From assembly GCF_039555335.1 (NCBI RefSeq), contig NC_092642.1, positions 16,397,208-16,461,207 of the forward strand: 64,000 bases of DNA, read 5' to 3'. Positions 28,387-31,300 of the stretch are shown here, one piece after another. The notes under the pieces were generated by a model. The model worked only from the letters and a program-made list of their open reading frames with translations, had not been told where the DNA came from and searched no databases. The DNA comes from Amphiura filiformis. Taxonomy: Eukaryota; Echinodermata; Ophiuroidea; Amphilepidida; Amphiuridae. Each line of letters begins with the position of its first letter. Position 1 is the first letter of the stretch. Made by a program: the position numbers and the translations under genes.

Positions 28387-31300
28387 CTATGATCTTGGTC
28401 TTTCCTTCTTCTCCTTGAAGAGAGCCAGGAGGGACACGTTGGCGACTTTGACGACCTTGAATCTGACTCCTGGAATATCACCAACAGCGTGACCTTTCCT
28501 ACCGAATCCAGACACCAGTACTTACGTCATTTTCCTGTACAAAGACACAAAACAAAACATACATTGTTATATATTTGAAGTATGACGTACAGTAATGTTC
28601 TAAATACAGTGCTTTCTAACCTTTTAATTAAAGCTCTTGCTCCAATGTTTTGTGAACATTTTCCTGTTGTATGCAGGGCTCAAAGATTATATAGGTCAAT
28701 GGGGAGGTTTTCCCCTGCTCTTTTCTATAATAGCCCCAGGCTGTAAAATGTGTAAGACTCAATGGACGGGGGAGACTTACCTAAAGAAAATTGATAAAAT
28801 AGCCCTGTAAGAAATTAATTTCTTTGAGAGGCTGGTTTGTCCTGGTTATGTGATAAATGCAGCATATAGCTATATTATAGGGAGAACTGCTACATTGATT
28901 ACAACTGTTCCAACTTTGATGACACCTCCGTCACTTTCAAAGAGGCATTAGAGTCATTGATGAGACGGGTACCCTGTTCAATTAGCAAATCAATGCTGTG
29001 ATTAACTTGCTCCATTGCATTCACACTCAAAAACCTCCTCTGACAGTGAATGGAATTTGCCCAGTGTGGAGTCGGGGGGTGTCATCATAGCTGGACTGTA
29101 TTATAGTTGACATGATAATAATCCCTTTGTCCCACACAACTTGAATGCTGCACACACAAACTGTAGCCCTACTAATAAAATTTGCAGTACTTTAAATTGA
29201 TGATCCAAAATATTTGTTTGTGGGGTGAAATTGCACTGGCAGGACACTGAAACAGTCCAGGTGCATTGGATGATCCACATTAATTTTCTCTTGCATCGGT
29301 ATTGCACCAAGCAAGCCATTATGAAATACATGCTTGGGGTTTCCAATGCTTAGGTAACAATCAGTAACCACAGCCTCACATTGATGTGTGAGCACAAGTA
29401 TGTGTTAAATGTAGAGCAAATAAAATCAACTGATCTGCTACAATCTCGGATTCATACACCTACCTTTCAGTCAAGGGCTTAGCCAGCAGCCTGTCCTAAA
29501 AATACCAGGCAAAAGAGTTTCAAGTATGTGGCTACTAAGTTATGGGAAAAAACTCTCATCCACCCCCAAAAAAAAAAATCAAAGGCGATTTCCGATGCAT
29601 CATCACTGATATTGAGATATATGAATGGGCAAAATTGGTGGCATATTCACTGGCTGCTTAAATCCCAGGTTGAAACAGCCATCTGGTCTGTGAATAGGCA
29701 GTTTTTGGTTCTTGGCTGAAATCAGTAGATTAGGCAGAAAATAATTTGAAGAAACGAATAATACATTTATCCAACCAGCAAATATATACATAATTTGTCA
29801 TTTTTATTTTGGGATGTGACCGAAAGAACCAGTTTCCAAGTGCTATAAATATTTAATTTTACGACTCATCACATCAAAACAAGGCGGTTGTCTTTTCACT
29901 TTCCACACAAGCAAACAGAATTTCACTTACTCAGACACTGTTTTTTGATAGGCTCAAAAGCAATTGCTCCTCTATAGCTCCTAAATGGTTGTCAAGGAGT
30001 AGTTTGTAGCTCCTCTTGATAACTTGCCAAATCTTAACTGAAATGGCTCCTGGTCCAAAACATCTCCTCTAAAGCTTTTCTTGAGACCAGAAAGGCACTT
30101 TACATCTCTTCATCACATTTTAAAGGACTGTGTCTGCAGTACTCCTGCAAATTTTTATAATTTTCTTCATGCATATAATATTAATTGTTATTACAACTTG
30201 CAATGCAAGGGAATTCCCAACAACTGTTGTTTTGATGTGGTGAGTCTAGCATGTGTCTGTGGGGTGAAATTGCACTGGCAGGACACTGAAACAGTCCAGG
30301 TGCATTGGATGATCCACAATAATTTCTCTTGCATCGGTATTGCACCAAGCAAGCCATAATTAAATACTTGCTTGGGGTTTCCAATGCTTGAGGTGCCAAT
30401 CGGGTTACCCACTAAGCTACTAAAATGATCAGTAGGCAGCATTGCACTAACCTATTGATGTGTATGTGCACAGACAATAGCTGCCATTTGCAATATTCCT
30501 ACGAGTCAACTTCCTGTATAAATTGCTGGTTTCATACTTTCCTGTCGCTTTGACAATGATTTTGCTCCACTGCGCAATCGACCAAAAACGCTACCGGTGA
30601 CCAGCAGCAAGCCGATATATCGATCACTCCACCGCTTTGCCCAAGGGGCAGCATCGCTAGGACTAGGAGTTGAATTCATATCAATTCGGAGTGGTGCCGC
30701 TCTGACGTACGATTTTGGAGCGGTGCAGAGCGGCAACATTGGCTTTCAGAGTCATGCCACTGCCGCTCAGTGACGTACTGCTCCACTTGCAGAAAAGTAC
30801 AAGCAGCATGATGAAATGTCACACGGCAAGTGGCAGCAAGTATGAAACCAGCATAATTTATTGTATTCCTTTAATCAATTAACAGGAAGTTGGTTCAACT
30901 GTAATATTGCTAATGGCAACTATTGCTTGTCTGTGCACACAACATGTTCTGCTACACTTCCTCTTGCAGACTCACCTCTATATAGTTGAGGCAACCATCT
31001 CTGGTCTGAAGGCTGTGATTTTCTTGCCGTTCTTGATCAGCTGTACCCTAACACACTTCCTGATAGCAGAGTTGGGCTGTTTGGCCTCCACACCACTGGG
31101 AAAATAATAGTCACAATCCACAAATTAATCTATCATTTTACAACTTAACAAAAATGTTTGAGCTCATACTTTAAATGAATAACTTGCCTTGTTTGCAAGA
31201 CAGATTATCCATCAAAAACACATTTTTCATTCATTATTCAATGTTAATTAAAACAAATATCTTTTACACAATTTACACTAAAGTTGATTTACAAGAATCA

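Follow-up and report, generated by a model that had tools for sequence, protein, structure and literature searches.

Two near-identical H/ACA snoRNA-like units in one intron of RPS23 and their predicted common target in 18S rRNA

The window, the whole 64 kb stretch of DNA that was analysed, carries a gene for ribosomal protein S23 (RPS23) on its minus strand. The coding part of exon 1 (35570-35573; ATGG in front of a GTAAG donor) was placed by its fit to exon 2 (31622-31781), which was recognized from its translation, with several homologues named S23 or S23e; exon 2 alone gave no Pfam match. Exon 3 (30976-31095) matches PF00164 (E 8.7e-14) and was also identified by translation, its frame being broken near the end as printed, and exon 4 (28387-28534) was assigned by translation. 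Intron 3, placed by fit (28535-30975; GTGAGT...TACAG, 2,441 nt), is the host of the two units described here. The coding sequence comes to 432 nt in total and the splice sites are intact. Against the reading frame expected for RPS23, one base is lost, net, towards the end of exon 3 and one is gained soon after exon 4 begins; the stretch in between contains two in-frame stops. This broken frame could arise from an assembly error, or the gene could be a pseudogene copy that continues to carry the snoRNAs. Among the matches listed for RPS23 as a snoRNA host, only PMC7602531 contains RPS23.

Several repeats were observed in the window. Between exon 3 and the nearer of the two units lies an imperfect inverted repeat (about 30450-30950, minus strand) with arms of roughly 70 nt that share GTGCACAGA, CAATAG and GCAATATT, perhaps a foldback or MITE-like element. 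Repeats with a common terminal motif like AGGGGTGTAGTACCACCTTAA, partly in inverted pairs, occur at about 31300-31535, 18829-18898, 49562-49608 and 50597-50666; together they resemble a family of MITEs in this genome, and one repeat of this type sits inside RPS23 intron 2. At 50843-51427 a 33-nt unit is repeated in tandem 17.6 times, with long open frames on either strand. A 149-nt sequence occurs in two inverted copies (6433-6581 and 7449-7597) that are 99% alike, each carrying a tRNA-Thr-like sequence with the anticodon GGT. Since this anticodon is unusual for a nuclear tRNA-Thr, these copies may be tRNA-derived SINEs.

The two units of intron 3 lie on the minus strand, 899 nt apart. Copy A (30251-30389, 139 nt) was recognized by its fold, by alignment and by a match to the Rfam family SNORA14, and copy B (29212-29351, 140 nt) by its fold and a match to the same family. 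They are identical in 133 of 140 alignment columns, the remainder being six substitutions and one 1-nt indel, and a direct-repeat search of positions 27000-33000 returned the pair as the sole families, in two blocks of 96% identity each with spacings of 1,039 and 1,038 nt. The guides and boxes are the same in both. These results bear out a previous reading made from the sequence only, which had described two near-identical H/ACA-like units with unchanged pockets, about 0.9 kb apart in a 2.4 kb intron of RPS23; nothing in the window shows the word 'vertebrate' that it had used. No third copy was found in the 64 kb window, where the next score of a model built on the two copies was 13.8 bits versus 179.5 and 183.6 bits for the pair; the typed 5' upper-stem pairs of this model are partly out of register, which makes it weaker for remote copies only.

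Minimum free energy (MFE) and centroid folds of both copies give two hairpins with a hinge between them and a short tail. Compared with shuffled sequences, the full-length folds have modest z-scores of -2.27 for copy A (3 of 200 shuffles as good) and -1.63 for copy B (15 of 200). The 5' hairpin alone is stronger than the full length in this respect (z of -5.04 in A and -2.83 in B), and the energy of the 3' hairpin alone is not special relative to shuffles (-0.53 and -1.05). The hinge contains the H box AGAGAA, read directly from the letters (30324-30329 in A, 29286-29291 in B), which matches ANANNA and lies 15 nt below the CCAAGC/GCUUGG upper stem, or 13 nt if the distance is counted from the extra C-G pair that the MFE fold places past a bulged U.

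The tail contains two ACA triplets (ACAGACA in A, ACAAACA in B). The second was chosen as the ACA box (30254-30256 in A, 29215-29217 in B) because in the MFE fold it is not included in the lower stem and its distance below the 3' upper stem is 14 nt, whereas the first is part of that lower stem. This choice puts the predicted mature 3' ends at 30251 and 29212, leaving tails of 3 nt (CAU in A and AAU in B) after the box, and the Rfam SNORA14 alignments stop at these same bases. Pocket-to-box distances in H/ACA RNAs are about 14-16 nt, and the spacing in both copies fits this rule. The earlier estimates of about 15 nt to the H box and 14 nt to the ACA box are reproduced, apart from the MFE-based count. 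The 5' ends given earlier (30389 and 29351) were likewise retained, but the 3' ends (30255 and 29216) are now predicted to lie 4 nt further on.

A search of Rfam at gathering scores identified no family at either unit and returned only two tRNA matches (6459-6530 and 7500-7571). With permissive filters, the best match of both copies is SNORA14 (RF00397), aligned over positions 1-135 of the 135-position model, at 31.6 bits (E 0.0013) for copy A and 26.1 bits (E 0.026) for copy B, both below the gathering score of 36 bits. When only 8 kb were scanned (26-34 kb), the SNORA14 match of copy A was the only one at E up to 1 (E 0.0067), and copy B did not appear at that limit. Weaker matches of both units were to SNORA35 (19.6 and 18.4 bits) and ceN41 (17.4 and 16.6 bits), with E from 0.71 to 5.7. 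SNORA24 had no match listed at E up to 10, in a table from which one overlapping match of the same clan is omitted, unnamed. The sequence-only reading had named covariance scores below cut-off as an outcome that would refute it, and formally this is what was found. The low score would nevertheless seem to weigh lightly against the snoRNA assignment, since a distant homologue would give a full-length match below threshold together with shared pocket letters.

The full-length match supports a SNORA14 membership of the two units, which would still be unproven by it. Both hairpins are covered by the alignment, and the copies have the family's letters UCCAA/AUUUCA within their 3' pocket and its AAACC on the left side of the 5' upper stem. 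They differ from it on the right side of the 5' pocket, which is not alike, and in the host gene: the chicken counterpart of ACA14 resides in CNOT1 intron 31 (excerpt of PMC2653536), rather than in RPS23.

The 3' pocket consists of UCCAA to the left (30305-30309 in A, 29266-29270 in B) and AUUUCACC to the right (30263-30270 in A, 29224-29231 in B) of a UGCAC/GUGCA stem. The left guide pairs with UUGGA and the right guide with GGUGAAAU of 18S rRNA, giving a duplex of 8 + 5 or more base pairs around an unpaired UN. The 18S sequences scanned came from 10 loci in bacterial and archaeal genome contigs, of which five (L001, L004, L006, L008 and L010; two complete and three partial) were kept as Rfam-confirmed eukaryotic 18S, and five (L002, L003, L005, L007 and L009) were dropped for a context unlike 18S. 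In all five kept loci the 3' pocket scores highest at GGUGAAAU[U]CUUGGA; the loci had been fetched by a pattern containing this segment, so that its presence is given and only its rank is informative. This site scores 33.5-33.8, and the second-ranked site of each locus 18.3-21.3. After shuffling, guides reached 33.5 anywhere in the complete 18S of L008 in 0 of 200 trials and, in larger sets, in 2 of 1000 with one register and 0 of 1000 with two. In viral contigs, neither the eukaryotic 18S pattern containing the target segment nor the pattern of the snoRNA 3' pocket had any match.

The 3' pocket of the Rfam SNORA14 consensus also selects this uridine of 18S, being complementary to UGAAAU[U]CUUGGA; the family match and the target argument share guide letters and are not independent. 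Judged from this complementarity, the identical 3' pockets of copies A and B probably direct pseudouridylation of the same 18S uridine. A target that had been left underived for both pockets is thereby supplied for the 3' pocket, but none is established for the 5' pocket. The excerpt available of the chicken catalogue (PMC2653536) does not give UGAAAU[U]CUUGGA as a target of ACA14.

For the 5' pocket three registers were compared, and only the one closed by the CCAAGC/GCUUGG stem has a single best site common to the five 18S loci. Located 73-74 nt upstream of the 3' pocket site in all five, this site, UAUUUUG[U]UGGUUUC, has a score that was reached by 6 of 200 shuffles in one register and by 98 of 1000 when all three registers were allowed. 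With 98 of 1000 shuffles reaching the score, UAUUUUG[U]UGGUUUC is not claimed as a target of the 5' pocket. The chicken counterpart of ACA14 has been assigned 18S-927 through a 5' duplex of 3+6 nt (excerpt of PMC2653536). That position is outside the best four rows per locus for the 5' pocket of copies A and B and outside the best two rows for the Rfam SNORA14 consensus pocket.

By the count that we assume for human 18S rRNA, the uridine in GGUGAAAU[U]CUUGGA is most likely its residue 863; this uridine is not known to be modified in wild-type yeast. Of the offsets given in papers, 866-815 for human (the 815 being an assumed figure), 808-759 for yeast and 824-775 for chicken, not all land on a uridine in the sequences compared. 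We infer the number 863, and not the sequence context of the target uridine. SNORA24, which addresses U609 and U863 of 18S, probably targets the same uridine as the 3' pockets of copies A and B, to the extent that the assumed numbering holds, but differs from them in that the best site of their 5' pocket lies elsewhere than U609. Modification of U863 by SNORA24 has been shown by SCARLET (excerpt of PMC6776443), and the nearby U866 of 18S has been assigned to SNORA28 (excerpt of PMC8522698).

All seven differences between the copies fall within the 44 of 140 columns classed as apical, linker or tail (p 2e-4 for random placement), classes that were defined post hoc, with the differences already known. 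They leave untouched the guides, the boxes, the lower stems and the inner parts of the upper stems. Two of the differing columns, 22 and 32, correspond to apical pairs that are each drawn in the fold of one copy only, and the comparison shows no covariation, with no base pair altered on both sides. The statement made earlier that the units are under constraint is plausible on this post hoc basis, although gene conversion, or a copy made relatively recently, would fit as well.

The flanks of the units suggest how the pair arose. On the upstream side, anchored extension recovers decayed homology between 30390-30483 of copy A and 29352-29432 of copy B (both minus strand), with 61 identities, 15 mismatches and 23 gap columns over about 80-94 nt, gaps having been made cheap. 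Random segments of the window reached the anchored upstream score in 1 of 400 trials at 20 nt, 0 of 400 at 40 nt and 0 of 250 at 95 nt. Downstream, anchored at the unit ends, no homology was found, and random segments reached the score in 400 of 400, 201 of 400 and 145 of 250 trials. Unanchored local alignment, which is weaker evidence than the anchored test, gave scores that shuffles reached in 16, 2 and 19 of 300 trials upstream (30, 100 and 400 nt) and in 55, 8 and 84 of 300 downstream (same lengths). A search for target-site duplications found none of note: the 60-nt flanks of copy A share no word of at least 6 nt and those of copy B share one of 7 nt, and old duplications of this kind would have decayed.

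The decayed upstream homology supports a duplication, as in the sequence-only reading, over a chance repeat; 'tandem' in the strict sense is not supported, the downstream flanks being without anchored homology. The start of the duplicated block was probably some 80 nt or more upstream of the units, and its other visible edge would be the mature 3' end. The flanks are far more decayed than the snoRNA units themselves. This was probably an old duplication within the intron, after which decay was faster in the flanks than in the snoRNA. The pattern would fit selection acting on both copies as well as gene conversion of the unit.

The same flanks bear on a different explanation, in which only one copy functions, and its partner, a duplicate that is recent or was gene-converted (perhaps a retrocopy of a snoRNA), has no role of its own and has not yet decayed. 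The low divergence between the copies could mean youth, and the anchored downstream homology ends at the predicted mature 3' end, as it would in a retrocopy of a 3'-trimmed RNA. However, no poly(A) tail and no target-site duplication were seen, and the 80-94 nt of upstream homology are far more diverged than the unit, which argues against a recent copy unless the unit alone was converted. A second copy without a role is thus a possible but doubtful interpretation of the pair.

A further explanation makes use of the spacer. Copies A and B could be the H/ACA ends of a sno-lncRNA comparable to SLERT, about 1.18 kb long (30389-29212), of which the spacer would also be kept. Two snoRNAs in an intron are a stated prerequisite for such RNAs (excerpt of PMC4234469), and copies A and B share strand and intron, 899 nt apart. 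SLERT, however, is described as human-specific, and its origin in TBRG4 is described as the skipping of an exon that separates two snoRNA-bearing introns, whereas copies A and B share one intron (excerpt of PMC11028025). A sno-lncRNA of this type is rather unlikely here; that the two units shield the RPS23 intron at its two ends after excision and so give rise to an H/ACA-capped product is quite unlikely. If it were true, one RPS23 transcript would yield a ribosomal protein, a guide that modifies 18S rRNA and a SLERT-like regulator.

That the units are members of a dispersed repeat or transposon and no gene pair is highly improbable: the window is repeat-rich and an inverted repeat lies immediately upstream of copy A, but only two copies stand out from the background in 64 kb, and the boxes, the spacings and the 18S-complementary pocket would be left unexplained.

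Known arrangements offer partial parallels. Introns of animals mostly hold one snoRNA, and snoRNAs that share an intron form a recognized class (excerpt of PMC11028025). Among human H/ACA families with at least two expressed members, only 7.3% lie wholly in one host gene (excerpt of PMC8178906). SNORA5A and SNORA5C, the source of SLERT, are likewise related H/ACA snoRNAs that lie near each other within a single host gene, TBRG4; they are listed as a sno-lncRNA pair (excerpt of PMC4234469) and belong to another family and another host than copies A and B. In RPL13A of Suberites, an invertebrate ribosomal protein gene also contains near-identical H/ACA duplicates (94% in S. domuncula), which differ from copies A and B in occupying neighbouring introns, one in each (excerpt of PMC3412847). 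The excerpts available of the literature on intronic snoRNAs contain no clear case of two H/ACA members of the same family in a single intron, and a literature search with amphioxus and snoRNA terms gave no match. Copies A and B are thus an ordinary kind of gene in an uncommon, somewhat unusual duplicate arrangement.

The preferred reading takes the observed units, boxes, folds, sub-threshold SNORA14 match, 18S complementarity and flank pattern together: copies A and B, encoded in RPS23 intron 3, are very probably paralogous box H/ACA snoRNAs akin to SNORA14, which guide one uridine of 18S rRNA and stem from an old duplication in the intron. We infer their expression, their processing and the modification. 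By analogy with established snoRNA biology, both would be freed from the intron by splicing, debranching and exonuclease trimming, and each is predicted to join the four H/ACA core proteins. Their identical 3' pockets would then pseudouridylate the U in GGUGAAAU[U]CUUGGA of 18S rRNA, and their 5' pocket may, weakly, address the U in UAUUUUG[U]UGGUUUC. After the duplication inside the intron that would have produced the pair, selection, gene conversion or the two together would have held the units alike while the flanks decayed.

This pair adds a probable SNORA14-like guide for 18S rRNA, with a target that can be derived, at scores below the threshold of the Rfam model. It is also a natural case in which to ask why two copies of one H/ACA guide persist in a single intron. 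By this comparison, the SNORA14 family consensus also seems to point its 3' pocket at the same uridine of 18S rRNA.
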